Shown here piece by piece: positions 18,258 to 34,616 of a stretch of DNA of 36,678 nucleotides (position 1 is the stretch's first letter; every line of letters begins with the position of its first letter). This stretch comes from a virus. The notes below the pieces were generated by a model. That model ran no database searches. It was given only the letters and a program-made list of their open reading frames with translations, and had not been told where the DNA came from. The stretch spans positions 1 to 36,678 of IMG/VR virus record IMGVR_UViG_3300030450_002180; one strand, written 5' to 3'. The translations under genes and the position numbers were made by a program.

Positions 18258-18507
18258 AACCTTGAGTATTTTTAGTGTTAGAAATAGGACTGTCTATAAT
18301 TTCTTTTTCAGCTTCAATGCGAGAAAGAATTTCAAACGCATCAAAGATAGCTAGTTTTTTTGTTGCCGCAGCGTTTTTTAATCTATCAGCTGCCAACTCA
18401 TCATCAGGATCAGGTTTAATAATATCTTCTTTAGCTACTTTAATTAGTTGTTTTACAGCTTTTCTTCCTGCTTCAATAATTTGTAATTTTATATCTTCTG
18501 TTTTCAT
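18235..18507 (-). CDS. Possible small terminase subunit (90 aa)
   Basis: The 90-aa protein is helical and charged: KLQIIEAGRKAVKQLIKVAK, then the motif ELAADRLKNAAATKKLAIFD and FEILSRIEAEKEII. The ADR(L/M)KNAAA pattern occurs, as I recall, in short proteins just upstream of TerL in marine phages. It overlaps TerL by 23 bases and the preceding 187-aa gene by four bases (ATGA type), so the three are translationally coupled. Position and helical composition suggest the DNA-recognising small terminase subunit, although no clear helix-turn-helix is visible and 90 residues is short for the family. It could instead be an unrelated head protein. Confidence 0.45.
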   Translation of the reverse strand: MKTEDIKLQIIEAGRKAVKQLIKVAKEDIIKPDPDDELAADRLKNAAATKKLAIFDAFEILSRIEAEKEIIDSPISNTKNTQGFAERKSK

Positions 18508-19067
18508 AATTTAATTGTAATGTTATTTGTAAACATTCTATATAACTTTTCATCGTCTATATAAAACTCATATTCACTTTCTGGGGTAAAAGAAACTCTA
18601 TCATTAACTTTTACTCCTAATTTTTCTAACTCTACGTTTCCATAACGTATCGTTCCTAACAAAGGCTCTTCGTTTCCTCCCTTTAAAATTATAGAATCTT
18701 CTAACGGTATCGGCTTGATAAAACAATATTTAGAATGAGACCTCCATTCTCCTTTATGTTTGTATAAAAAAAACTGATCAAAATCTACAAAAAATAAATT
18801 TTCTTTAAAAAAACTTCTTCCGCTACGCTCTCTTCCCTTCATGTCGTAGTAGTATTTAAAAACATTATGATGCACCACCAAAGTATCTCCCTTTACTATT
18901 TCTCCTTTGTATCCTAAAGGAACTTCTACTACTGTACAAAAACGATTGGATGCTTTATGGTCTTCTTGAGACGTGCTTGTAATTAACTCTACTTTTCCTA
19001 CTTTTTTGGTGTTGTTATATCTTTTATTATTAACAGGAGTAACAATAAAATAAAAAGGAGATTGCAT
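18504..19067 (-). CDS. GroES-fold-like (Cpn10-like) protein next to terminase
   Basis: The 187-aa protein shows features of the GroES beta-barrel but is longer than the usual 95-100 aa. The central part, GEIVKGDTLVVHHNVFKYYY, resembles the GroES segment where a Gly-Asp turn precedes a strand. The C-terminal part, GVKVNDRVSFTPESEYEF followed by IDDEKLYRMFTNNITI, resembles the Cpn10 end (GDxVxF ... xxGxxYxxxxxxDI). Between them lies an extra segment with SGRSFFKENLFFVDFDQFFL. Similar proteins are sometimes annotated as co-chaperonin in marine phages, as far as I recall. A separate, standard GroES gene exists at 31555-31812, so this one may be a divergent second co-chaperonin or a virion protein using the fold. 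It overlaps both neighbours by a few bases. Confidence 0.4.
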   Translation of the reverse strand: MQSPFYFIVTPVNNKRYNNTKKVGKVELITSTSQEDHKASNRFCTVVEVPLGYKGEIVKGDTLVVHHNVFKYYYDMKGRERSGRSFFKENLFFVDFDQFFLYKHKGEWRSHSKYCFIKPIPLEDSIILKGGNEEPLLGTIRYGNVELEKLGVKVNDRVSFTPESEYEFYIDDEKLYRMFTNNITIKL

Positions 19068-20713: not shown

Positions 20714-21121
20714 TTATTTTTTTCTTATTTGTTGTCCTTTTTCGTATGACCTTCCTCCAAAAAAAGCTCCTACGGTTGTAATAAGAGTAAGTTGCAACAA
20801 ATCTACCCACTTGTCTGCCACCTCAAACTTAAGAGAACCTGAGTCTATAAAGACTAAAATCACTGTAGATAAAATTAAAAAAATCAACACCAAAGGTCTT
20901 ACTGAACGAGTAAGCCAGTTTCCATATCGTAAGTCTGCCTCCCACCTTCGGGTAACGTTTTCCTGCATTTTTGCTTCTGCTTCAATAAATAATGTTTCCA
21001 TTTCTTTTTGAAACTTTCTTTTTTCATCGCCTGTAGTTATAAACTTATCCGCTACGTTTCCTAGTTTTTCTACAATCCCCCCTGCAGCATTACCAAATAT
21101 TTTTCCTAATATATTAGTCAT
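20714..21121 (-). CDS. Holin candidate (135 aa, Holin_3TMs-like)
   Basis: The 135-aa protein begins with an amphipathic region (GKIFGNAAGGIVEKLGNVAD, then KFITTGDEKRKFQKEMETLF). A motif follows in which an Arg/Glu-Ala-Asp stretch precedes the first membrane span: RRWEADLRYGNWLTRSVRPL, then LVLIFLILSTVILVFI. A second hydrophobic segment is LLQLTLITTVGAFFGG, followed by a basic tail. This layout matches phage proteins described as three-TM holins (also known from gene transfer agents), which make holes in the inner membrane at lysis. The endolysin here has a signal peptide and lies 13 kb away, so the holin might act by depolarising the membrane. The neighbouring lipoprotein and membrane/coiled-coil genes support a lysis role. 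Confidence 0.65.
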   Translation of the reverse strand: MTNILGKIFGNAAGGIVEKLGNVADKFITTGDEKRKFQKEMETLFIEAEAKMQENVTRRWEADLRYGNWLTRSVRPLVLIFLILSTVILVFIDSGSLKFEVADKWVDLLQLTLITTVGAFFGGRSYEKGQQIRKK

Positions 21122-21620: not shown

Positions 21621-21974
21621 TTATTGGTTTATTCCCCTAGAGCTTCCTCCCCCTGATGATGAAGTATATGTGCTCTTTCTTATACGCCTACCCTTAGTGT
21701 TTAATTTATAGACGAAATTAGAGTTGAGTTGATTAAATTGTGAAGGATAATAAATAGAGCGCTTGCCTGTGTCGTGCTGCCAAGCATAGTTGGCTACAGG
21801 CAAATAACGCTCATAAGTTTGACTATTCACTACGTCTCTTTTTATATGATAATGTTGATACGCTAAACGGGAGTCGTGATGTTTAAAAAAATATAAATTA
21901 TCATAAAATACTTTTTGCATTGAGTGACAACCACTTAACACCAAAAATAAACTTAAAACAATTATTTTATACAT
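21621..21974 (-). CDS. Phage lipoprotein (117 aa), possible spanin subunit
   Basis: The N-terminus, MYKIIVLSLFLVLSGCHSMQ, is a textbook lipoprotein signal with lipobox LSGC, so the mature protein would be lipidated at Cys16. The remaining 100 residues are Tyr/His/Ser-rich, with KRSIYYPSQFNQLNSNF and a flexible Ser/Gly tail (YTSSSGGGSSRGINQ). The ATG overlaps the stop of the 48-aa basic gene by one base. An outer-membrane lipoprotein next to membrane/coiled-coil proteins and a holin suggests a two-component spanin that fuses the membranes at lysis. It is longer than most outer spanins and not Pro-rich, so this remains a guess. Confidence 0.6.
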   Translation of the reverse strand: MYKIIVLSLFLVLSGCHSMQKVFYDNLYFFKHHDSRLAYQHYHIKRDVVNSQTYERYLPVANYAWQHDTGKRSIYYPSQFNQLNSNFVYKLNTKGRRIRKSTYTSSSGGGSSRGINQ

Positions 21975-22120
21975 TATCTTCCTTGTCTATTATAAGGTTT
22001 TTTATATTGATGGTTGGCAGGATGCTTTCCTCTGCTTAAATTTTTAGAGTGGATTCCTCTTCTTTTTTTTTTAGGCTTTCTAAAATATGATGAGTTAAAT
22101 CCAATATTTCTGCGAGCCAT
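21974..22120 (-). CDS. Small basic protein (48 aa)
   Basis: A 48-aa frame starts MARRNIGFNSSYFRKPKKKR, continues RGIHSKNLSRGKHP and ends QYKKPYNRQGR. The ATG overlaps the TGA of the 95-aa gene (TGATG) and the stop overlaps the next ATG, so it is almost certainly translated. Short proteins with a RKPKKKR-x-G-x-HSK core and a KPY-x-x-QGR end recur in marine phage genomes as far as I recall, without known function. Its high charge suggests contact with nucleic acid. Confidence 0.65.
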   Translation of the reverse strand: MARRNIGFNSSYFRKPKKKRRGIHSKNLSRGKHPANHQYKKPYNRQGR

Positions 22121-22407
22121 CAGCGTTTATATACCTTGTCTTCAATATTTTCAATTTTTTTTTCTAGCTTTTCAATTTCTAGTTGCATAAACTCAATTTT
22201 TTGATTTACTACTTCGTCTTGTTTTATTTCTACAACAGGCAATTCTTTAGCAATTTCAATTTCTTGTTTAAGATTACTGTAAGACATTGCTCCTGAAATA
22301 AGGAATCCACCTACAATTAAAATACTTTTGATGTCTACTTTAATATCAGGTTTTTTATCTCCATCTAAATCTATTCCTACGGATTTTTGTAAAATTTCTT
22401 CTGGCAT
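22120..22407 (-). CDS. Membrane-anchored coiled-coil protein (95 aa)
   Basis: The 95-aa protein has one membrane span at about residues 27-43 (KSILIVGGFLISGAMSYS), preceded by a short acidic N-terminus with a DLDGDKKPDIKVD stretch. A linker LKQEIEIAKELPVVEIKQDE and a coiled coil (QLEIEKLEKKIENIEDKV) follow. It is a paralogue of the adjacent 99-aa protein: both have span, then a Leu-Lys-x-Glu-Ile segment, Ala-Lys-x-Leu-Pro-Val, then coiled coil. The topology resembles an inner-membrane spanin. It starts four bases after the 99-aa gene ends. Confidence 0.55.
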   Translation of the reverse strand: MPEEILQKSVGIDLDGDKKPDIKVDIKSILIVGGFLISGAMSYSNLKQEIEIAKELPVVEIKQDEVVNQKIEFMQLEIEKLEKKIENIEDKVYKR

Positions 22408-22411
22408 AATA

Positions 22412-22711
22412 TTATTGTTTACTTAAACGATATAACCTCTCGTCTAGTTTGTTTAACGTTTCTTTTATTTCTGTTATGTCTGATTTAACTTGGGTAACTT
22501 CTTTTTCAGTATTTATAATAGCAGAGCGAATCAACTCATCTTGAAACAACACTTCTTCTTGTGTGATGTTAGGTACGGGGAGTTTTTTAGCTTCTACAAT
22601 TTCTGCTTTAAGAGAAAAATACATTCCTATCAATGCTGCTAAAGATATAGCAATCCCAATTATGTTTTTAATAGATATAGGGATAAGAGTATTTTCGTTT
22701 ATCTCTTTCAT
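22412..22711 (-). CDS. Membrane-anchored coiled-coil protein (99 aa), paralogue of neighbour
   Basis: The 99-aa protein carries a membrane span at about residues 15-33 (KNIIGIAISLAALIGMYFSL), then LKAEIVEAKKLPVPNITQEE and a coiled coil (EKEVTQVKSDITEIKETLNK). The layout and the Leu-Lys-x-Glu-Ile ... Ala-Lys-x-Leu-Pro-Val linker match the 95-aa gene downstream, so the two look like products of tandem duplication and could pair with each other. It is the first gene after the -7 box at 22781-22788. Candidate roles are inner-membrane spanin or lysis regulator; both are inference. Confidence 0.55.
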   Translation of the reverse strand: MKEINENTLIPISIKNIIGIAISLAALIGMYFSLKAEIVEAKKLPVPNITQEEVLFQDELIRSAIINTEKEVTQVKSDITEIKETLNKLDERLYRLSKQ

Positions 22712-23205: not shown

Positions 23206-23340
23206 TTAGTTTTTAATTGTGTCTTGAACGACTTCTACGCTATCAACACCCACAGAGTCAGCTTGGTCAGAGCTTGTAGTGTTTGAGGTAGGTAAAGCAC
23301 ACCCAGACAACAATACAAAAAGTATAATTATTTTTTTCAT
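23206..23340 (-). CDS. Tiny lipoprotein (44 aa)
   Basis: A 44-aa frame starts MKKIIILFVLLSGCALPTSN, a complete lipoprotein signal with lipobox LSGC, followed by only 30 Ser/Thr/Asp/Val-rich residues (SSDQADSVGVDSVEVVQDTI). It begins one base after the stop of the 684-aa fibre gene and is probably read from that message. Roles to consider are a superinfection-exclusion lipoprotein, which shields the receptor after infection, or a small outer spanin. The pairing with a receptor-binding fibre makes the first attractive, but this is inference. Confidence 0.6.
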   Translation of the reverse strand: MKKIIILFVLLSGCALPTSNTTSSDQADSVGVDSVEVVQDTIKN

Positions 23341-23341
23341 A

Positions 23342-25396
23342 TTATTTGTTTTTAAGTTCATCAATTTCTGCTTTTAATTCTTGTATAGCTTTTAATAAAA
23401 CTGGCATTGTTTCAGTATATTTCATAGCCAACTTTTCTTCTTCGTTTCTGTTTTTACTTTTATAAACTGTTTCAGCAAAATCATTTTCCCAATCCTGTGC
23501 TATAAATCCAATTTTTGTTTCTTTTTCTTCGTCATCTTTAAAATTAAATTTAACACATCTATAATCTTTAATTTTATCTAAAACACTATCAAGAGGTTTT
23601 ATATTTTCTTTTTCTGTTTCATCTGAAAAAGTACCCCACGAAGTTCCCCCAGCAGCTAGTTCTACACCGCCAGTTGTTCCAGAGTAAAGCCTTATACTTC
23701 TTATGTTAGAGTTTTGGGTTATATAATAAGCCGTGGCATCTAACCAATGAAAGGTACTATAGCCACTACCGTTAATATGAAATTGAGCTGTTGATTGAGT
23801 TCTGTTATTAGCATCTATTACATATAAAGCATAGTTTGTGTCTGGAGTTCCTCCTATTGTAACTTTTCCACCATTTGAAATTTGCATTTTAGTTGCAAAA
23901 GCATCGTCTCTTATTTGTAATCCATTTGAATCAGCGCCTATATACATTCCCCCAATAGAACTACCAGACCTAAATAATCCTAATTGAGCAGAAGCTCCAT
24001 TTAATGTTATTCTTGGGTAGCCGTTTGCATCATTTGTAACAATATTACCAGAGTTTCCTGTTACTAAAGTTGCATAACCATCTCCATCTAGTTGTAAAGC
24101 ATTTATATAGGTGCTACTAGCATTTCTTGTATAAATTGCATACCCACCATTTACATTAGCGTTTGTAAGTTGAAATGTGCCAGAAGCATCGGTTGCACTA
24201 CAATATAAGCCACCAAAATAAACAGCACCATCATTTCTTACAAGAAATTTTGTTGCACCTGCACTATCGCAGCCTTCTATTGAATAAGCTGTTGTATCTG
24301 TTGTGCTGCCTCTAGCTGTAAACCTCACAGCAGAGCCACCTACACCACCAATATCTACATTTCCACTTGAATCAATAGTCATTCTTACTGCACCACCTGT
24401 TTCAAATTCCATAGGCACATAACTACCAGCACTTCCATAAGTTGCTGATATATTTGTTTGTGTAGAAGTTGCAGCCATTAAAAGTTGGTTATCTCCACTA
24501 TCTGATGCAAAAGCTGCTATTTCTCCTTTTACTAATAATTCTCTATTAAATTGTGGGGTTGTGCCAATTCCAACATACCCACCATCTTGTTGTAAAACAA
24601 GGTTTCCTGCATTAGCAACCCCTGATTCTAAGGTTTGGAATACCCATTTTCTATCTGCTGCTGATGCACCACCTACACTATAAACTTGCAATGCGGCATA
24701 ATTAGATGCCTCATTGGATTGTCCTATATAAAGTGATTCTTGAGCACCTGTATTTGTTTTAGCCACACCTGTTCCAATAGCTAATTTAGGTACTGGAGTG
24801 GTGGTTATTCCAATTCCCACATTTCCACCACTATTAATTCTCATTCTCTCGTTAGTATGTCCGTCGGTGTAGAACCTCATGTCTGCTGTTGCTCTTGTCA
24901 TTATAGATAAACCGCCACTTGCGCCTGTACCTGAACCTATGGCAGCACCATCTTGAACAAAACCACCAGCTGTTGTCATTCCAGTTCCATTTGCACCTAA
25001 AAACAAACCGTCTGCTGCTGCACTTGAATTGCCTACATAAATAGTTGCTTGTGCTGCTGCTCCTGCATTAGCATTATATAATTGTATTATAGAATCAGCA
25101 TTTTGATCTTTAACAAAAGTAGCTGTAGTTCCTGTTAGTGTTCCTGTAAGATCAATATTTCCTGCTACACTAATTGTTGGGCCAGTAGGATCTTCTGTCA
25201 TGATAGAGTCAGTCAATGTCTCAGCGTCTACCCATTTAGGAATTTTTTGTGCAGTTCCACTTCCGTCAATAATTGAAGACGACGCAATTAAGTTAGCAGG
25301 TGTAATCTGAACGTTATCTGTCCCATCATATCCTACTAGATACCCTACGTTTGCTACGTCTGTCTCTACGTTAAACTGTGAAAATTTTACCGCCAT
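23342..25396 (-). CDS. Tail fibre with C-terminal S74 autoprotease chaperone (684 aa)
   Basis: The first about 70 residues are an anchor module shared almost identically with two further fibres (MAVKFSQFNVETDVANVGYL ... ASSSIIDGSGTA, then KWVDAETLTDSIMTEDPTG). A long Gly/Ser/Asn/Thr-rich beta region with NVGIG-type repeats follows (MRINSGGNVGIGITTTP, VGIGTTPQFNRELLVKGEI). From about residue 590 there is a peptidase S74 intramolecular chaperone: SDETEKENI with the Ser and Lys of the dyad, then NFKDDEEKETKIGFIAQDWE and a C-terminal coiled coil (VLLKAIQELKAEIDELKNK). Such domains trimerise the fibre and cut themselves off. It is the last of the fibre genes and has its own -7 box overlapping the previous stop. 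Confidence 0.85.
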   Translation of the reverse strand: MAVKFSQFNVETDVANVGYLVGYDGTDNVQITPANLIASSSIIDGSGTAQKIPKWVDAETLTDSIMTEDPTGPTISVAGNIDLTGTLTGTTATFVKDQNADSIIQLYNANAGAAAQATIYVGNSSAAADGLFLGANGTGMTTAGGFVQDGAAIGSGTGASGGLSIMTRATADMRFYTDGHTNERMRINSGGNVGIGITTTPVPKLAIGTGVAKTNTGAQESLYIGQSNEASNYAALQVYSVGGASAADRKWVFQTLESGVANAGNLVLQQDGGYVGIGTTPQFNRELLVKGEIAAFASDSGDNQLLMAATSTQTNISATYGSAGSYVPMEFETGGAVRMTIDSSGNVDIGGVGGSAVRFTARGSTTDTTAYSIEGCDSAGATKFLVRNDGAVYFGGLYCSATDASGTFQLTNANVNGGYAIYTRNASSTYINALQLDGDGYATLVTGNSGNIVTNDANGYPRITLNGASAQLGLFRSGSSIGGMYIGADSNGLQIRDDAFATKMQISNGGKVTIGGTPDTNYALYVIDANNRTQSTAQFHINGSGYSTFHWLDATAYYITQNSNIRSIRLYSGTTGGVELAAGGTSWGTFSDETEKENIKPLDSVLDKIKDYRCVKFNFKDDEEKETKIGFIAQDWENDFAETVYKSKNRNEEEKLAMKYTETMPVLLKAIQELKAEIDELKNK
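25187..25396 (-). repeat. Fibre N-terminal module, copy 1
   Basis: Codes for the shared anchor of the 684-aa fibre. It is nearly identical in protein to copies 2 and 3. In DNA it matches copy 2 over long exact stretches (for example the part coding for YLVGYD), so these two copies separated recently or exchange sequence. Confidence 0.8.
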
Positions 25397-25408: not shown

Positions 25409-25416
25409 CAAAGTTA
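25409..25416 (-). promoter_or_regulatory. Bacteroidota -7 box (TAACTTTG), 684-aa fibre
   Basis: Exact TAnnTTTG on the minus strand, 12 bases before the ATG at 25396. Its first three bases are the TAA stop codon of the 726-aa fibre gene. The third fibre can therefore be transcribed independently of the first two. Confidence 0.6.
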
Positions 25417-27594
25417 TTTATTTTCTAATTCTTTTACTCTAGCTTCTAATTCTTGTATAGCTTTAACTAAAATAGGAACTAATACTGAAGATTTAATTGC
25501 TTTAGTTTTTTCTCCTGTTTTTTCTATTGAACCATCTTCTTTATCTTGTGTATCATCAGTTTCATAAACTAAAGAAGGAAAAACTTCTTCTAGTTCTTGA
25601 GCTACAAAGCCAATTTGATTTTCTTTTGTTTCTTTTAAATCAAAATTTCTAACTTTTAATTTACAAACATCTTCAAGTTTTGGGGTTGCGTCTTCAATAT
25701 TTTCTTTTAATTTAATATCAGAATACACCCCATAACTTCCGTTTACATTTGCTAAATCTCCATTTCCATATATAACACATTTATAAACTCCTGCGTTTGT
25801 TCTAAATCCACCTGCCACATAACTATTTGTACCATCTGTAGAATCTACTAAAAGTCCGTTTCCTGTTGCGCTTACATTTTGTAATACCGTTCCAAATGTA
25901 GATAAGTTTCCATATACTGCAAGACTATAATTAACAGCAGCAGTGCCCATTCCAACTTTTGAATCACCCCTAACTGTTAAAAGTGGAGTGCTTCCTGCTA
26001 GATTTTCTACATACAATGCGTGATTAGAACTTGATGTACCCGCGGAAATATAAGCACCATTATCTAAGGTAGCATCACTTAAAATCCTTAATTTATACGA
26101 ACCAGATGTTTGTCCAAGACCGAGGTTTCCAAGGTTTGTGAGGTTCATTTTCTCCGTTGTTCCTATGGTAGTTCCCACAGCAACACTTGCTTGTAATCCA
26201 GCTGTTTGAAAAGAAATTCCTCCTGCGGCATCGTTGTTAATAGAGCTATAAAATACGTTGTTTGTAGCCGCGTCCCCTACGTTTTTAAATACTAAGGCGG
26301 GTGATGGATATGCAGCCCCTGTAAATGTGTTTTCTATTAAAACATATCTATTGGCTAAATAGCTTGTTGCGCCGTTTACGCCTGTTTGAAAGTGAGCTAA
26401 GAGCTCTGTTGTTTCGGGATAAGATGTTCTTGCAACATGAAGCGCTCCGTCAGGACTCGTTGTTCCAATTCCAACATTTCCATCTGGCTCTATTCTCATA
26501 AACTCTACAACACTTCCACTTGTTCCGCCATTGAAAGTAATTGGATATCCTGATCCTGCGGCATCTGCTGTAAACTCAAACCCGCCACTATCAAAGTCTA
26601 TAATGCCTGCTTCTGCATTTGTTGTACTACGTTCAACAGTTATAGAGCCACCATTTATGTTTATATCACCATCAGATTCAATTCTCATTCTTTCTGTTGC
26701 TGCTGTAAACATTACCATTGAATCTGATGACTGTTCATATCTTAATATTCCTCTATATTGTTCATCGCCTGTTGTTCCGTCTGCAAAAAATATCTGACTA
26801 TCCCCTCCACTTGAGCTATAAATAGTCATCCCCCTACTTGTACTACCATCTCCAATAACTAATTGAGAAGCATTTGCGAAAAAAGAACCTGGTGAAGTTT
26901 GATTTATTCCAACCTTTTGACCATCATCAATAACTACAGCATCTAACGCCGTGTCTCCATTTCTTTTTGTTTGAAACACCATCTTTCCCCCAGTGCCCGC
27001 GTCAGTAGTTACGTTAATAAGGCCTAATACATCGGCGCTACTTGCTTTTTTAAAATTAATTGTAGGGGTGTCGTCTACGGCTATTGTAATATCTCCCGAT
27101 GATAGCGTGCCTGCTAACGTTGCATTACCTGTATTTGTTTCTAATATCAGGGCGTTTACTCCAGCTGTGTCTTCTCTTATAAAGAAATCTCCTTGGTTAC
27201 CACTAATTTCATCGCCTCTATTTGTTTTTAATAACCATGTTGTATCGGAGCTTTTTAATCCTAAATACACATCATTTCCATTAGCGCCTGTAGATTCAAT
27301 AAGCAACTTTGCGGTACTACTAGTTACTATAGTATTTGTGCCGTTACCTGTAATTTCAATTTCTCCTGCAAGTGTGATAACCCCAGTGCCTTCTGTCATA
27401 ATAGAGTCGGTAAGCGTTTCACTATCTACCCACTTAGGAATTTTACCAGCCGTACCTGATCCGTCAATAATAGATGAACTAGCGATAAGGTTTGCAGGAG
27501 TAATTTGCACATTGTCTGTGCCATCATATCCTACTAGATACCCTACGTTTGCTACGTCTGTCTCTACATTAAATTGTGAAAACTTTACTGCCAT
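25414..27594 (-). CDS. Tail fibre with C-terminal S74 autoprotease chaperone (726 aa)
   Basis: Same plan as the 684-aa fibre: the shared N-terminal anchor, then a different beta-rich shaft, then S74. In the shaft, the segment from EAGIIDFDSGGFEFTADAAG to EFMRIEPDGNVGIG (residues about 318-378) is nearly the same as a segment of the 667-aa fibre. The S74 domain starts near residue 626 (SDIKLKENI, with the catalytic Ser and Lys), continues NFDLKETKENQIGFVAQELE and ends in a coiled coil (LVKAIQELEARVKELENK). It precedes the 684-aa gene by 17 bases and follows the fibre assembly gene. The shaft is presumably the part that recognises the host surface. Confidence 0.85.
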   Translation of the reverse strand: MAVKFSQFNVETDVANVGYLVGYDGTDNVQITPANLIASSSIIDGSGTAGKIPKWVDSETLTDSIMTEGTGVITLAGEIEITGNGTNTIVTSSTAKLLIESTGANGNDVYLGLKSSDTTWLLKTNRGDEISGNQGDFFIREDTAGVNALILETNTGNATLAGTLSSGDITIAVDDTPTINFKKASSADVLGLINVTTDAGTGGKMVFQTKRNGDTALDAVVIDDGQKVGINQTSPGSFFANASQLVIGDGSTSRGMTIYSSSGGDSQIFFADGTTGDEQYRGILRYEQSSDSMVMFTAATERMRIESDGDININGGSITVERSTTNAEAGIIDFDSGGFEFTADAAGSGYPITFNGGTSGSVVEFMRIEPDGNVGIGTTSPDGALHVARTSYPETTELLAHFQTGVNGATSYLANRYVLIENTFTGAAYPSPALVFKNVGDAATNNVFYSSINNDAAGGISFQTAGLQASVAVGTTIGTTEKMNLTNLGNLGLGQTSGSYKLRILSDATLDNGAYISAGTSSSNHALYVENLAGSTPLLTVRGDSKVGMGTAAVNYSLAVYGNLSTFGTVLQNVSATGNGLLVDSTDGTNSYVAGGFRTNAGVYKCVIYGNGDLANVNGSYGVYSDIKLKENIEDATPKLEDVCKLKVRNFDLKETKENQIGFVAQELEEVFPSLVYETDDTQDKEDGSIEKTGEKTKAIKSSVLVPILVKAIQELEARVKELENK
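26460..26640 (-). repeat. Fibre shaft module shared with 29380-29556
   Basis: Codes for a segment running from RSTTN through IIDFDSGGFEFTADAAG to GNVGIG. A near-identical segment is found in the 667-aa fibre although the flanking shaft sequences differ. This indicates module exchange between fibre genes. Confidence 0.7.
27385..27594 (-). repeat. Fibre N-terminal module, copy 2
   Basis: Codes for the anchor of the 726-aa fibre, nearly identical to copy 1 in protein and close to it in DNA. Copy 3 encodes the same residues with many synonymous differences. Confidence 0.8.
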
Positions 27595-28014: not shown

Positions 28015-30018
28015 TTATGAAGCATATACTCTATTTCCGTTTATTTTTACATACCACGCCCCTGAGCCCGCATACGAGCCTGCGCTTTTACTTACTACAA
28101 AAGTTGTTCCGTTAGTTCTACTTATTGACCAAGCACCTCCATTAGCAGTATCTGTGCGTTGAATTTCTTGACTTGATAGGTTTGGCCCATTAGCAAATAA
28201 AGCCACTAAACTACATCCATACGCAGCTATATATCCGTAGTGATTAAAAACACATTCAATATACAATGACGAATCATCAACATTCGTAAAAGTTAAAGAT
28301 ACCGTTGCATTTCCCGCTACTACTCCGCTATTGCCTACTTGAGAAATTCCATTAAAATAAAATCCCGCTGCTCCTGTATTTATATAACTAGCTTCTACAG
28401 TTCCGTCTGTGTGAAGGTGTAGTCTGTTTTGGCCATTTAAATAAAAGTAGTGAGGTATTGAGCCGCTTGTTTCTAAAGATAAACTAGTTGTTGTTGCAAC
28501 CAATCTACCGCGCATGACATCTCCTTGAGATAAGTCTAATATACCCCCATTTGTTGGATGATTTATTTCTAATGATGTATATCCTGCTATAGCAGTTGGG
28601 CTTGTCGTTCCGAGCCCCGCATTACCATTAGGATCTAAATAAAACCTTGTAGAAGCCGCAACAACATCTACAAAATATAAACTATCTGACCTCGCGCCTA
28701 AGTACCATTTTCCAGTTCCACTTCCTGTAGCCTCTAATATTAATTGGTCTGTTGATGAAGCTGCTTCAATGTGTATTCCACCCGTACCAGAATTGTCTGC
28801 TGCTCCGTGCCCAACTCCTAATGCCTTTCCTACAAATGCTCCTGCAATAGTAGGACTACTCATATTAGTATAGAAATCAATGCCACTATGCCCATTCATA
28901 AACAAATGAGTGTCCGTATAATCAATTCCCATTAAAGCTCTGTTACCACCAGCATCTTGAAATAAAATATGTGGATTAAGATTTGAAGCTGTTGTGCCTG
29001 TATTGGTAACATATAAAGGTGCAATGGTATCACTATCTGTAACAAAAGCACCTATTTTTCCACCATTACAATTTACTTCAAATCTTTGTAGTGAACTTAC
29101 TGAGTGTGTAGTTGCACCTATTAATACTTTTCCATCATTTGTAATTCTCATTTTTTCTGACCAAGTAATTGTAGAATCAGCACTATCTGATGATGCAGTT
29201 GACCAAGCGTGATATCCGTCTTGTTCATATTGTGTTGCTAAACCAGTACCAATTCTTTTATAAGAACCATCATAATAAGTGTTTGCAAACATTCTAAAAT
29301 TAGTTGTGCTTGTACCTGTTAATGCACCACCTGTGCCTACTCTTAAAACAGGACTAAATACTGTCCACGCTTCAGGTGTAACTCCTATTCCAACATTTCC
29401 ATTAGGCTGTATTCTCATAAGCTCGGCCACACTACCACTTGTTCCGCCATTAAAAGTAATAGGGTATCCTGTTCCTGCGGCGTCTGCTGTAAACTCAAAG
29501 CCGCCGCTATCAAAGTCTATAATGCCTGCTTCTGAATTGGTTGTAGAACGGTTAATAGTAAGTGAGCCTCCGTTTAGAGTCACATTTTGAGATTTGTCTA
29601 AAGCAATTACATCTGTGCCATCAACCCTAATTCTTGATCCTGCCGTAGTATGACTGCTTACAAAATCTAATATTGGAAATATAGTTGTTCCACTTGTTGT
29701 TTCAATACTAAAAGTAGTATCTGTTGAAGAACTTGTTATTTTACTTCCTGTATCAGCTGTTACATTACCTGTAATTACACAATTTCCCCCTACAGTAATA
29801 AAACCCGTTGGGTCTTCGGTTAAGATAGAATCGGTAAGGGTTTCTGCGTCCACCCATTTTGGGAGCTTGGTGGCTGTGCCGCTGCCATCAATAATTGAAG
29901 AGCTTGAAATAAGATTTGCGGGGGTAATTTGTACGTTATCCGTACCGTCATATCCCACCAAGTATCCTACATTAGCGACATCAGTTTCTACATTAAATTG
30001 CGAAAATTTTACTGCCAT
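28015..30018 (-). CDS. Tail fibre without S74 domain (667 aa)
   Basis: The N-terminal anchor is the same as in the 684- and 726-aa fibres (MAVKFSQFNVETDVANVGYL), followed by KLPKWVDAETLTDSILTED. The shaft is beta-rich with GNVGIG-type and GNAGLGTTSP repeats, and one segment (residues about 155-213) nearly matches the 726-aa fibre. The C-terminus lacks the S74 Ser-Lys motif. It ends instead in a different tip: LTFTNVDDSSLYIECVFNHY, then SLVALFANGPNLSSQEIQR and SGAWYVKINGNRVYA. This tip may be a receptor-binding domain that trimerises by another route, possibly with the fibre assembly protein encoded just downstream. Confidence 0.75.
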   Translation of the reverse strand: MAVKFSQFNVETDVANVGYLVGYDGTDNVQITPANLISSSSIIDGSGTATKLPKWVDAETLTDSILTEDPTGFITVGGNCVITGNVTADTGSKITSSSTDTTFSIETTSGTTIFPILDFVSSHTTAGSRIRVDGTDVIALDKSQNVTLNGGSLTINRSTTNSEAGIIDFDSGGFEFTADAAGTGYPITFNGGTSGSVAELMRIQPNGNVGIGVTPEAWTVFSPVLRVGTGGALTGTSTTNFRMFANTYYDGSYKRIGTGLATQYEQDGYHAWSTASSDSADSTITWSEKMRITNDGKVLIGATTHSVSSLQRFEVNCNGGKIGAFVTDSDTIAPLYVTNTGTTASNLNPHILFQDAGGNRALMGIDYTDTHLFMNGHSGIDFYTNMSSPTIAGAFVGKALGVGHGAADNSGTGGIHIEAASSTDQLILEATGSGTGKWYLGARSDSLYFVDVVAASTRFYLDPNGNAGLGTTSPTAIAGYTSLEINHPTNGGILDLSQGDVMRGRLVATTTSLSLETSGSIPHYFYLNGQNRLHLHTDGTVEASYINTGAAGFYFNGISQVGNSGVVAGNATVSLTFTNVDDSSLYIECVFNHYGYIAAYGCSLVALFANGPNLSSQEIQRTDTANGGAWSISRTNGTTFVVSKSAGSYAGSGAWYVKINGNRVYAS
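29380..29556 (-). repeat. Fibre shaft module shared with 26460-26640
   Basis: Partner of the shaft module in the 726-aa fibre: same protein segment around IIDFDSGGFEFTADAAG with a few substitutions (VEFMRIEP against AELMRIQP). Flanks are unrelated. Confidence 0.7.
29809..30018 (-). repeat. Fibre N-terminal module, copy 3
   Basis: Codes for the anchor of the 667-aa fibre. The protein matches copies 1 and 2 almost fully, but codons differ at many third positions, so this copy is older or evolves separately. Confidence 0.8.
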
Positions 30019-31106: not shown

Positions 31107-31589
31107 ATGACACGTTTTGAAAAAAGATTCCGCAAAAACTACGATAGAAAAGAACCTACACACGATTATTTAAAATACTGGCGCGTGGTAAGGTTTTGGG
31201 TAAAAGCCGTCCATGGCATTAGTACCCCTGACTTAGAGATGATGTTGTTTTTATATAGCGAAGAAATTTTTGATAAAAAAAAATTTAAAGATTTCGGGCA
31301 AATTATGTCGTGGGATAAAAATAGGTTTGACAGGTTGTTGCGTGACAACTGGATTATTGTATGGAGAAAACGTTACAAAAACCAAAAGACATTATACGAG
31401 CTTTCATTTAAAGGAAAAAAATTAATTAATACCGTATACAAAAAACTTAATGGAGAAGAAATCGATGAAGCGCCAAGCAACAATGTTTTATTTCGTGGTA
31501 ACGTGTCGTATGCGGGAAAGGTATATAGAAATAGAATAATTGAAATGAACCAGGCTATACAACGACAACGACGTCGCGCTCAAGAATAA
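31107..31589 (+). CDS. Winged-helix-like protein, possible regulator (160 aa)
   Basis: This is the only clear rightward gene between 1 and 35655. The N-terminus is very basic (TRFEKRFRKNYDRKEP). The middle looks like a winged helix: STPDLEMMLFLYSEEIFD (first helix), KFKDFGQIMSWDKNRFDRLL (second and recognition helices), then NWIIVWRKRYKNQKTLYELS as the wing strands, followed by a helix KGKKLINTVYKKLNG, as in MarR-type proteins. It is DNA-binding by inference. Its opposite orientation among late genes fits a control protein. The 3' end runs 35 bases into the 3' end of groES on the other strand. A weak rightward -7-like TACTTTTA lies at about 31067. Confidence 0.6.
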   Translation: MTRFEKRFRKNYDRKEPTHDYLKYWRVVRFWVKAVHGISTPDLEMMLFLYSEEIFDKKKFKDFGQIMSWDKNRFDRLLRDNWIIVWRKRYKNQKTLYELSFKGKKLINTVYKKLNGEEIDEAPSNNVLFRGNVSYAGKVYRNRIIEMNQAIQRQRRRAQE

Positions 31590-31812
31590 TAGTATAAGGC
31601 TTGTCTTCTAAAAGCATCATGTGGCCTGCGTGCCTGTCATAGTAAATTATATCTCCTTCGTTTATAACCGTTACCTCTGTACCAGGTTTTATTACTTTAC
31701 CTTTGTTGTATCGTACATTGTCTTTGTCGTCTCCTGTAAGCAAGAGTCCTGAGTTTGTTTTTAGCTCCTCTTTTATTTGCTCTACAATAATATATTTATT
31801 TATCGCTTTCAT
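31555..31812 (-). CDS. groES: Phage GroES co-chaperonin
   Basis: A co-chaperonin subunit that caps the GroEL cage. The start KAINKYIIVEQIKEELKTNS and GLLLTG form the first strand and the mobile loop, as in bacterial GroES (KPLHDRVIV ... GGIVLTG); the rest (YNKGKVIKPG, INEGDIIYYDRH, KPYTIILERDVVVVV) follows the Cpn10 barrel. I choose the ATG at 31812 because it overlaps the upstream stop (ATGA) and is preceded by GGGAGAA, one of the few Shine-Dalgarno-like sites here. An in-frame ATG at 31821 would add MGE. The protein is about 85 residues, shorter than usual, with a compact roof loop. It is the last gene of the chaperonin operon. Confidence 0.85.
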   Translation of the reverse strand: MKAINKYIIVEQIKEELKTNSGLLLTGDDKDNVRYNKGKVIKPGTEVTVINEGDIIYYDRHAGHMMLLEDKPYTIILERDVVVVV

Positions 31813-32147
31813 TTCTCCCATTTGTCTTTACATACCAACAAAGAAATTACGCTATAGTTAGCTAAATCTAAAAAAGAATCTTCTAACGACTCGTTCTTCG
31901 CTTTAAACCCTGTGGTCAATAAGTTGTCTACACGACACAGCTTGTCGTTGCTTCTAAACCATATACCTGTAAGTGATTTTGTTTTGTTCTCTTTTTTAGA
32001 CAGGTCTCTACCTAATGATATGTTGGTTGGGCCGTAGTCATGTTGTTTCTCACAGAAGGTGGTATACATCTGGTTTAATATATCTTTAAATGCGGCCGTT
32101 GTCTCAGGATATTTATTTTCACAAAACTCTATAGACTTATTTTTCAT
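31809..32147 (-). CDS. DUF1599/Nmad1-like protein inside the chaperonin operon (112 aa)
   Basis: The protein carries the pattern of the nucleotide-modification-associated domain 1 (DUF1599): MYTTFCEKQHDYGPTNISLG, where the HDYG is diagnostic, then GIWFRSNDKLCRVDNLL and KNESLEDSFLDLANYSVISL, where ES-x-x-D-x-x-x-D-x-x-NY is typical. The family occurs in phages and is linked to nucleotide or DNA modification by genomic context; a precise reaction is not established. The gene overlaps groEL by 11 bases and groES by four, so it is translated as part of the chaperonin message. The coupling could mean it needs GroEL to fold, or simply shared timing. Confidence 0.7.
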   Translation of the reverse strand: MKNKSIEFCENKYPETTAAFKDILNQMYTTFCEKQHDYGPTNISLGRDLSKKENKTKSLTGIWFRSNDKLCRVDNLLTTGFKAKNESLEDSFLDLANYSVISLLVCKDKWEK

Positions 32148-33735
32148 GGCGCGCTAATGTTATGATTGCGTTGGTAGATAAAATTGTCGTGGCTACAGAC
32201 ACTGCGTTACGCAACGCTTTTTTGGTAACCTTTAACGGGTCAACGATACCGAGCTCAAACATGTCTCCATATACGTCAAGCTTTACGTCATACCCTCCCG
32301 AGTCCATAATGTCAGTGGTCATCTCAGAGGGATTTTTGCCTGCGTTTACAAGAATCTGAAAAAACGGTTCTTGTAGCGCCTCGGACAATATCTCTACACC
32401 TAAGCGGTGGTCAAGATTTTTTTCATCGGGCTTATCGCCATACGCGTCAGCTACACGGAAAAGAGCTAGCCCTCCTCCTGGTAAGATCCCTTCCTCCAGT
32501 GCGGAACGCACTGCGCACACCGCGTCATCGACGCGGTCAAATTTTTCTTTCTGCTCTACATCACTGTTTGCCCCTACATAAATCACGCCTATACCTCCTG
32601 TCAGCCCAGCAATACGCTGCAACACAAACTCTCTGTCGTCAGGTTGTTTGGTTGTCTTATGCTGCTCCCACAACTCCTTCACTCTTTCTTTCAGCTCTTC
32701 GTCGTTATTTTTGTCTTTAATAATAATGGTTGAGTCTCTTCCCACAATAACTTTCTTTGCTTTACCTAAATCTTCAATACGCATGTGGCTTAAGTCATCA
32801 CCTGTCTTCTCAGAAAAATAGGTAGCCCCTACCGCTAGCGCGATATCGCTCATCAGCTCGTGTTGTTTGTATCCAAACTGAGGGGGGATGATACTGCATA
32901 TCTGCAAATTGTTTTTCATCACGTTGGCAGCGAGGGTATTAATTAAGTTTTGTGTACACGTTCCAATAATTAAAAGCTTATGGTTGTTATTGATAATAGG
33001 CTTTAAAACATTTTCAATAGACAAAATATTGTTTATCTCTTGGTCTGCTACTAAAATGTGTACGTCTTCTAAGACACACTCGTCTTTCTTTTGGTTGTTT
33101 ACAAACAAAGGAGAGCTGTATCCTCTATCGATCTTCATTCCGTTTGTTACCTCGTAGTATGTGTTGGCGTCGTCAGACTTCTCTACCGTCACTATCCCGT
33201 TCTTCCCAACCTTCTGGTATGTCTCACTTATAATTGATCCTATCTCGCTGTCATTATTACACGAGATAGTCGCTACATCAAGTAGTCGTTTCTTTGTAAG
33301 TTTTTTTGTTTGTTTTGTAAGAGCCTCTATTACCTTCTCTGTCTCTTTTTTTATGTACTTTATCACCTCAGTGCTGTTATGAGAAGCAGTTAGCTTCTTC
33401 ATCCCCTTCTTCACGATGGCTTCAGTAAGCACAATAGCTGTCGTTGTGCCGTCACCAGCTTGTGACGCTGTCCTGTCGGCTGCTCCCTTCATCATTTGAA
33501 CGGCTAAGTTCTCAACAGCATCTTTTAGCTTCACCGCTTTGGCTACTGTCACGCCGTCTTTTGTTACTGTTATCCCATGTGTATGTGTTGGTGACTCAAT
33601 AAGCACGGTCTGTCCTCGCGGCCCTAGTGTGCTTTTGACTGCTTTGGCAATAGTGGATATCCCTTCAATTAGTTTATCTCTGCCCTGATCATCAAAACAT
33701 AAGTCTCGATGAAGAGTTGGTTGTATTTGATTCAT
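32137..33735 (-). CDS. groEL: Phage GroEL chaperonin
   Basis: The 532-aa protein is a complete group I chaperonin. ATP-site motifs are present: TLGPRGQTVLI (residues 36-46), TKDGVTVAK with the metal-binding Asp (about 60), GDGTTTA with the catalytic-region Asp (about 95), and near 395-414 RVDDAVCAVRSALEEGILPG followed by GG, matching the chaperonin signature and the Asp needed for hydrolysis. The C-terminus ends ITLARHEK and lacks the Gly-Gly-Met tail of bacterial GroEL, so the cage floor differs. The apical region (FGYKQHELMSDIALAVGATY) keeps the expected helices. Its -7 box is 16 bases upstream. It probably folds phage proteins such as the capsid protein, as known for phage-encoded chaperonins; GroES is encoded two genes downstream. 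Confidence 0.95.
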   Translation of the reverse strand: MNQIQPTLHRDLCFDDQGRDKLIEGISTIAKAVKSTLGPRGQTVLIESPTHTHGITVTKDGVTVAKAVKLKDAVENLAVQMMKGAADRTASQAGDGTTTAIVLTEAIVKKGMKKLTASHNSTEVIKYIKKETEKVIEALTKQTKKLTKKRLLDVATISCNNDSEIGSIISETYQKVGKNGIVTVEKSDDANTYYEVTNGMKIDRGYSSPLFVNNQKKDECVLEDVHILVADQEINNILSIENVLKPIINNNHKLLIIGTCTQNLINTLAANVMKNNLQICSIIPPQFGYKQHELMSDIALAVGATYFSEKTGDDLSHMRIEDLGKAKKVIVGRDSTIIIKDKNNDEELKERVKELWEQHKTTKQPDDREFVLQRIAGLTGGIGVIYVGANSDVEQKEKFDRVDDAVCAVRSALEEGILPGGGLALFRVADAYGDKPDEKNLDHRLGVEILSEALQEPFFQILVNAGKNPSEMTTDIMDSGGYDVKLDVYGDMFELGIVDPLKVTKKALRNAVSVATTILSTNAIITLARHEK

Positions 33736-33983: not shown

Positions 33984-34514
33984 TCACTCAATACCCTTGA
34001 CGCTAGCAAACTTTGCCATGTAGTCAGAGCATTTTGTCTTGTACGCATCAGCCTTGTCAATACGCCCACCGCTCTCAAGGTATGCCATGACGTTGCCTGC
34101 TCCTACAAGATGTGCTGCCGCCAGTATCCCCGCCTCACTCACCACAACACCTTTGATGGTTGTGCCTGTGTACTTACGGATATGCCTTCTCAGCACCTTT
34201 TTGTTATGGGCTGTCAGCACTCGCACGCTCCGCTCTTGAAGCACCGTATCTTTTAGGTACTCACCCCTACTCACCTCTATCCCTATGGCTTTTAAGGTTG
34301 CTACACCAAACTGATACTTACCCATGTAACCAAATGTGTTGACCGCACTGTAGTCACCACCACTCTCAAGAAACCCAAGCTTACTATAGAACTCACTCTC
34401 ACTCACCTCACTCTTCACCTCACGCGTCTCAAGCTCCAACGGTAAGTTGAGGCCGAACGACGTAGGACTCCCGAGCATAGCAAGCATCGAGAGGAAAAAA
34501 ACGGATTTATTCAT
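33984..34514 (-). CDS. Secreted lysozyme-like endolysin (176 aa)
   Basis: A lysozyme/transglycosylase-type muramidase. From the ATG at 34514 the protein begins MNKSVFFLSMLAMLGSPTSF, a signal peptide or signal-anchor; the longer frame would need a TTG start. The catalytic region is KLGFLESGGDYSAVNTFGYM then GKYQFG, with Glu50 as the likely general acid in the E-S-G-G-x-Y pattern. The C-terminal part (GVVVSEAGILAAAHLVGAGN then AYLESGGRID) matches the conserved helix and AAHLxGAG motif of the family. Its base composition is unlike most of the window: two 60-base lines I counted by hand had 50-52% G+C, against 38% in a line I counted in terL. A secreted enzyme would be exported by Sec and wait in the periplasm. 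Confidence 0.8.
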   Translation of the reverse strand: MNKSVFFLSMLAMLGSPTSFGLNLPLELETREVKSEVSESEFYSKLGFLESGGDYSAVNTFGYMGKYQFGVATLKAIGIEVSRGEYLKDTVLQERSVRVLTAHNKKVLRRHIRKYTGTTIKGVVVSEAGILAAAHLVGAGNVMAYLESGGRIDKADAYKTKCSDYMAKFASVKGIE

Positions 34515-34616
34515 ATATGTCGTTTTTATGTCGAAAAAATAGCTGTTTAAATGCAATAGACGCAGTTATGTCGATTATGTCGTTTTTGTTGCTGCATTTT
34601 GCTATATAGTTTTTTA

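Follow-up and report, generated by a model that had tools for sequence, protein, structure and literature searches.

Which job could two adjoining genes for short, look-alike membrane proteins do in a phage lysis cluster, and does a lipoprotein encoded beside them share it? The question is raised by two reading frames, for proteins of 95 and 99 aa (P95 and P99), in the window (the whole stretch of 36,678 nucleotides analysed here, IMG/VR record IMGVR_UViG_3300030450_002180). The initial annotation had read them as tandem paralogues with a common membrane span, linker and coiled coil inside a lysis-like cluster, and had suggested a heteromeric inner-membrane component that might work with a 117-aa lipoprotein as a three-part spanin. 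We consider the best explanation to be that P95 and the lipoprotein form a two-component spanin in a lysis cassette, with P99 co-assembling or working in parallel, and give this a probability of roughly 0.4. It draws on the paralogy and architecture of the two proteins, their cassette context, recurrent pairing in other phages and the linkage of the P95 family to lipoproteins in relatives, all of them read from sequence.

The gene pair and its lysis slot

Table 1. Window features discussed in the text, in order of position (G001 is a near-identical record).
Feature	Coordinates	Strand	Remarks
135-aa holin, phrog_3427	20714..21121	-	phrog_3427 E 1.8e-21; Pfam GTA_holin_3TM below cut-off
117-aa lipoprotein, candidate outer-membrane spanin subunit	21621..21974	-	lipobox LSGC, tail GGGSSRGINQ
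48-aa basic ORF	21974..22120	-	1-nt overlap each with the P95 end and the 117-aa lipoprotein gene start; present in G001, dN 0.068, dS 0.444
P95, class A, candidate inner-membrane spanin subunit	22120..22407	-	95 aa; DxDGDxxxD loop in beta hairpin, span, LKQEIEIAKELP linker, 30-aa coiled-coil helix, end KVYKR
P99, class B	22412..22711	-	99 aa; N-terminal span, LKxEI...AKxLPV linker, 48-aa coiled-coil helix
44-aa small lipoprotein, alternative candidate outer subunit	23206..23340	-	starts MKKIIILFVLLSGC; present in G001, dN 0.045, dS 0.088
190-aa transglycosylase-like protein, possible endolysin, 11 kb from the pair	33984..34556	-	PF06737 E 0.002 (below cut-off); phrog_27932 E 9e-7; phrog_26675 endolysin E 0.0013

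P99 is transcribed ahead of P95, with 4 bp between the two genes. The stretches around the linker (NLKQEIEIAKELPV in P95, SLKAEIVEAKKLPV in P99) carry LKxEI and AKxLPV exactly in both proteins. BLASTP aligned the two at 42% over 48 aa (E 1e-6 as a single comparison), and their Smith-Waterman score of 84 was reached by 1 in 5000 shuffles of P99 that kept the N-terminal part, span, linker and C-terminal part each apart. Profiles of the two families matched with 97.9% probability (E 5e-13), and the C-terminal heptad pattern was equalled by 2/5000 shuffles for P95 and by 0/5000 for P99. These tests bear out the common span, linker and coiled coil first described; by sequence comparison, the likeness across span and linker is real and beyond chance. 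AlphaFold2 models from family alignments gave P95 a beta hairpin round its DxDGDxxxD loop and, besides the span helix, one further helix (mean pLDDT 69, pTM 0.27), and P99 two helices at 14-42 and 51-98 (mean pLDDT 82, pTM 0.38); with the heptad pattern, these helices amount to the build of an inner spanin, in which a single span near the N-terminus leads into a coiled coil. Against G001, P95 has dN 0.013 and dS 0.24 (14 differences) and P99 dN 0.013 and dS 0.16 (12 differences), and from this comparison both look to be under purifying selection.

Overlaps of 1 nt link P95, the 48-aa ORF and the 117-aa lipoprotein gene in a row. The cluster has a holin but no endolysin gene, and a profile scan of the neighbours found no amidase or M15 peptidase near the pair; judging by its matches, the transglycosylase-like protein may be the endolysin of this phage. 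A colinear 37-kb record (G050; terminase 75%, portal 75%, a 480-aa structural protein 70%) holds in the same slot a syntenic ortholog of P99 (48%), an amidase and a two-span putative holin that gave no phrog_3427 match, and in it we found no P95 relative and, by a rule-based scan, no lipobox gene. In MW202828.1 (terminase 73%), the slot is filled by Phage_holin_4_1, an N-terminal-span protein of 207 aa and an M15 peptidase. These gene contents mark it as a lysis slot in which the genes are exchanged, the window carrying a version that has no amidase. The lysis-like cluster of the initial annotation is thereby upheld, as it also is by the endolysins and holins found around P95 relatives (below).

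In four phages with related terminases, N-terminal-span proteins of ~180-215 aa, in which no clear lipobox was visible by eye, are encoded beside an endolysin gene (L200 9503-10126, L201 12159-12704, L203 7464-8063, L204 23366-24013), the one in L201 about 1.7 kb from it, and are possibly an alternative spanin for the slot. The ~200-aa N-terminal-span proteins of MW202828.1, elemo, Calle_2 and Gundel_1 had no match at E <=1 among the ORFs of our loci.

At E 1e-10, 86 of the 87 phage records matched by the terminase were Flavobacterium, Cellulophaga, Tenacibaculum or Maribacter phages, the remaining one being an unassigned phage, MW202828.1. On terminase sequence, the window is from a phage of Bacteroidota, and the nearest named terminases are those of Flavobacteriia phages. 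No PF00589 integrase was found in the window. It encodes GroES (31555-31821; PF00166 E 1.2e-10), GroEL (32137-33735; PF00118 E 1e-58) and, before the terminase genes, a second GroES-like protein of 187 aa (18504-19067; phrog_13932 E 4.1e-20), all matched in G050, MW202828.1 and elemo. Three fibre-like genes (23342-25396, 25414-27594, 28015-30018) share a near-identical N-terminus, and the middle one, which was scanned, has a C-terminal endosialidase-type chaperone domain (PF13884 E 1.9e-11).

Class A, its cassettes and their lipoproteins

Profile scans of viral contigs yielded 103 relatives of P95 (class A) and at least 352 of P99 (class B), 80 of each being kept, and a third group, class C, is marked by a KWPRGE motif. 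In a tree built on 97 columns, with a long-branch warning that extends to the branch of P99, class A (support 99/100) and class C (100/100) are clades and P99 lies inside class B with L122 and L119 (99/92); monophyly of class B was unsupported (p-AU 0.226). As P95 and P99 thus belong to long-separated families, the tree, within the limits of its 97 columns and long branches, gives no support to a recent tandem duplication, and the pair looks, from sequence, like long-diverged families brought together. The two remain adjoining paralogues, as first noted, with the refinement that they come from old, separate families.

The DxDGDxxxD loop is present in 13/13 nonredundant class A, 1/38 class B and 0/5 class C proteins; we take it to resemble the calcium-binding loops of extracellular repeats. 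A class B protein with this loop (L152 5929-6249) is a possible intermediate or A/B fusion. When P95, P99, three relatives and two lipoproteins of the LIPO157 type (below) were compared by tblastn with 50,697 named-phage records, no match was better than E 1 (matches at E 1 or worse: 226 records in one search, one in another), and a genome-collection search (class B only) gave six contigs, all titled metagenome-assembled genomes.

Neighbours of class A were counted in the 20 of 40 nonredundant loci with full 3-kb flanks, among them the window. Within 3 kb there was an endolysin in 16 loci (M15 peptidase or Amidase_2, as confirmed on examples), a phrog_3427-type holin in 11, a paralogue in 12 and a LIPO157 lipoprotein in 10, counted by profile, since single-linkage cluster labels put the wrong name on some small ORFs (the window's 48-aa ORF as holin, a 93-aa ORF as SEC740). 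By this gene context, class A is a resident of lysis cassettes. The gene order is M15 endolysin, two small ORFs, class A and lipoprotein in L076 and L105, and amidase, class A and short lipoprotein in L111; the holin comes next after the lipoprotein in L076 and L111. L007 also encodes a 106-aa protein with a heavy-metal-associated domain and a hydrophobic start (6294-6614; PF00403 E 1.2e-7); two loci, L007 and L014, have such a protein encoded between class A and the endolysin, and its family occurs within 3 kb of class A in 7/20 loci.

LIPO157 was found in 13/20 class A records and in 1/29 records with B or B and C (Fisher p 3e-6), in records that are not independent and with a profile that favours class A records, having been built from eight lipoproteins, six of them from class A loci. 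It was absent from 7/20 class A records. Its gene and the end of class A share 4 nt in L076, L105 and L111, a layout common for inner and outer spanin genes. The lipoprotein of L111 is only 57 aa long, and none was seen in L098, L100, L101 and L113, which have the amidase-A-holin order in common, so the lipoprotein partner of class A can apparently be lost or replaced. Among 14 picked loci, most of them chosen as lipoprotein-negative in earlier scans, 9 had no lipobox ORF over up to 6 kb. Lipobox genes, called like spans by simple rules and not by a trained predictor, were more frequent near the anchors than far from them both with class A (18/373 vs 1/178) and without it (21/470 vs 1/349), and this enrichment near class B without class A weakens a special link to class A.

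The window's own lipoprotein is more isolated. It was found solely in the window phage and G001, by single-sequence patterns that miss distant kin, and conservation alongside the pair was seen no further than this; full-length kinship with LIPO157 was looked for and not found, the match being confined to the low-complexity C-terminal tail. Its weak PHROG matches fall within the signal region and are to Cor superinfection exclusion (E 0.0041) and to Rz-like spanins (E 0.06, E 0.22). A C-terminal GGGSSRGxN occurs in 9/9250 ORFs, namely the window lipoprotein and eight LIPO157 proteins, some of them near-identical to one another. The DNA of the tail is identical at 27-29 of 42 nt between the window and five LIPO157 genes, which indicates that it is common at the protein level and not by recent DNA transfer. 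The tail, with its differing codons, is suggestive of GGGSSRGxN, a low-complexity sequence, being a conserved contact tail on exchangeable lipoprotein bodies. Conserved C-termini are also seen in class A (KVYKR) and in most LIPO157 proteins. The lipoprotein part of the initial annotation therefore survives in a changed form: the link is to class A in relatives, through the three gene overlaps and the LIPO157 counts, and extends to the 117-aa lipoprotein through the common tail only.

The best placed of the alternatives, though in our view unlikely, is that P95 and P99 regulate the holin as antiholins or single-span accessory holins and do not act on the outer membrane. Class A matches to phrog_10340, named holin/anti-holin (P95 E 2.1e-4, over profile positions 4-39 of 77; L015 E 2e-7, over 4-62 of 77), point this way, as do the class A genes that adjoin a holin gene in several loci, with 4-nt overlaps in L079 and L098, and the occurrence of both class A and class B in cassettes with no visible lipoprotein. 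However, 'holin/anti-holin' is an annotation label, phrog_10340 is not among the matches listed for the class A relatives L018 and L021, and the matches to it and to phrog_20984, labelled unknown (P99 E 3.4e-4), are weak and cover the N-terminus, span and linker, with the coiled coil largely uncovered. Many cassettes also hold a separate multi-span holin candidate, and holin regulation accounts neither for the conservation of the coiled coil nor for the overlaps with lipoprotein genes. As the LIPO157 profile comes mainly from class A loci and the L015 match covers most of phrog_10340, we rated the two-part spanin lower, and holin regulation higher, for these two reasons.

Class B and the pairing of paralogues

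Profiles of A together with B or C were found in 36/192 sequences (191 loci and the window, overlapping stretches of one contig included). Of 82 contigs bearing class A, 60 were scanned whole and 25 of these also encode a class B or class C protein, with its gene on the strand of A and in either order; the remaining 22, shorter and known only from the stretch around A, show A with B or C in 7. Of the 35 records in which A has no partner, at least 14 offer full 3-kb flanks around it, in counts that include near-identical phages and many unpaired A genes close to contig ends. Obligate pairing was dropped as an idea, the first batch having given 15/20 A records and the second only 10/40. As far as these records go, pairing of A with B or C is recurrent, yet optional.

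Next in standing, and likewise improbable to us, is that P95 is the sole lysis protein and P99 has a separate envelope role, the two being neighbours through cassette mosaicism and forming no heteromer. Class B stands alone in 27 of the 30 B-bearing records without A (class C is also present in the other 3). Of the 72 class B loci, 56 have full 3-kb flanks; a thioredoxin-like gene is found within this distance in 52 of them and an outer-membrane-protein-like gene in 38, both named by eye, and an endolysin in only 21. Several loci with both A and B, L007, L021 and L051 among them, retain the thioredoxin-like neighbour beside B, and some A-B pairs are up to about 1.2 kb apart. On the other hand, L122 and L119, in the backbone slot of the window, have B beside an amidase and a putative holin with no thioredoxin-like gene, and the paired genes adjoin or overlap in the window, in L103 (B, 4-nt overlap) and in L112 (class C, 4-nt overlap). 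Pfam gave no match for one thioredoxin-like member (L007) and only a weak SH3 match for one outer-membrane-protein-like member (L144). Examples of these class B neighbours are a ~360-aa outer-membrane-protein-like ORF (L144 4898-5980) and a ~120-aa secreted thioredoxin-like ORF (L145 6288-6653).

We consider it doubtful, more so than either alternative above, that the three proteins form a three-part spanin, in which a P95/P99 hetero-oligomer of the inner membrane would recognise an exchangeable outer lipoprotein by its short conserved C-terminal tail. Cassettes in which no lipoprotein was seen speak against such a machine being obligatory. That the outer subunit is the 44-aa lipoprotein instead is very improbable: it does have a lipobox, a size near that of Rz1 and a counterpart in G001 but lies upstream, with a DUF7936 gene between it and P99, and has no LIPO157 tail.

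A proposed two-component spanin among known lysis systems

For the two-component spanin that we prefer, the 20.7-22.7 kb cluster would be the lysis cassette of a Bacteroidota phage. P95 would be the inner-membrane half, with its short N-terminus in the cytoplasm, a single span and the coiled coil in the periplasm, and a lipoprotein, in this phage the 117-aa one, would be the outer-membrane half, probably joined to it C-terminus to C-terminus. Once the endolysin had removed the wall, the P95-lipoprotein complex would bring the two membranes together. P99, an old paralogue with the same architecture, would have come from a B-endolysin-holin cassette and beside P95 would most likely co-assemble in the inner membrane or do a parallel job. 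Topology, partner choice, membrane fusion and the P95-P99 heteromer are thus predicted features of the model. By K+R bias, class B proteins divide into 28 N-in, 9 ties and 1 N-out (n=38), and class A is undecided, with 6 N-in, 4 N-out and 3 ties (n=13).

Two-component spanins, lambda Rz/Rz1 and other SpaninDB entries, have the same N-terminal span and coiled coil in the inner protein, the same overlap with a lipoprotein gene (seen here in three relatives) and the same place in a lysis cassette. The span-then-coiled-coil order of P95 and P99 fits the inner-spanin build given in the parts of PMC6139136 that we drew on; the periplasmic parts here add up to about 55-60 plus about 100 aa, within the 62-300 range stated there, and the mature periplasmic part of Rz1 is put at 40 aa (PMC6139136, same parts). 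Unlike those systems, the present one gives no sequence match, has two paralogous inner proteins in one cassette and is not always accompanied by a lipoprotein; in the PHROG search, the sole spanin matches of class A and B proteins were at E 0.02, 0.13 and 0.99. Unimolecular spanins serve the same outer-membrane lysis step in Gram-negative hosts and need a lipobox and a C-terminal span in one protein, whereas in P95 and P99 the span is N-terminal, and the lipobox scan flagged neither protein.

Bacteroidetes phages are credited with unimolecular spanins only in the consulted portion of one survey (PMC12596118), and excerpts of another place Croceibacter and Bacteroides phages among the spanin-less (PMC6139136). 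Sections of PMC8776804 describe span-bearing proteins near flavophage endolysins and report a unimolecular spanin for Ingeline and a potential one for Nekkels. Among named phages, Nonlabens phage P12024L has at gp13-gp15 an 88-aa span and coiled-coil ORF directly before an endolysin, together with a phrog_3427 holin; this ORF reaches only E 0.052 with the class B profile, which makes it at most a candidate homologue, and no paralogous pair was seen there. The available parts of PMC6139136, PMC12596118, PMC8776804, PMC10136315 and PMC10367356 hold no description that we found of two paralogous inner spanin subunits, and a phrase search of the literature found no paper on a heterodimeric i-spanin or a three-component spanin.

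Little is known of the way in which Bacteroidota phages breach the outer membrane, and a widespread coiled-coil family that is often paired and linked to lipoproteins could fill this gap and gives named genes to work with. If the three-part reading were true, it would be the first spanin of the two-component type reported for Bacteroidota phages, as far as the portions of the literature consulted go, with an inner subunit drawn from an A/B/C family that phages mix and match. The tail common to otherwise unlike lipoproteins, if real, would help to locate the contact joining the two membranes.
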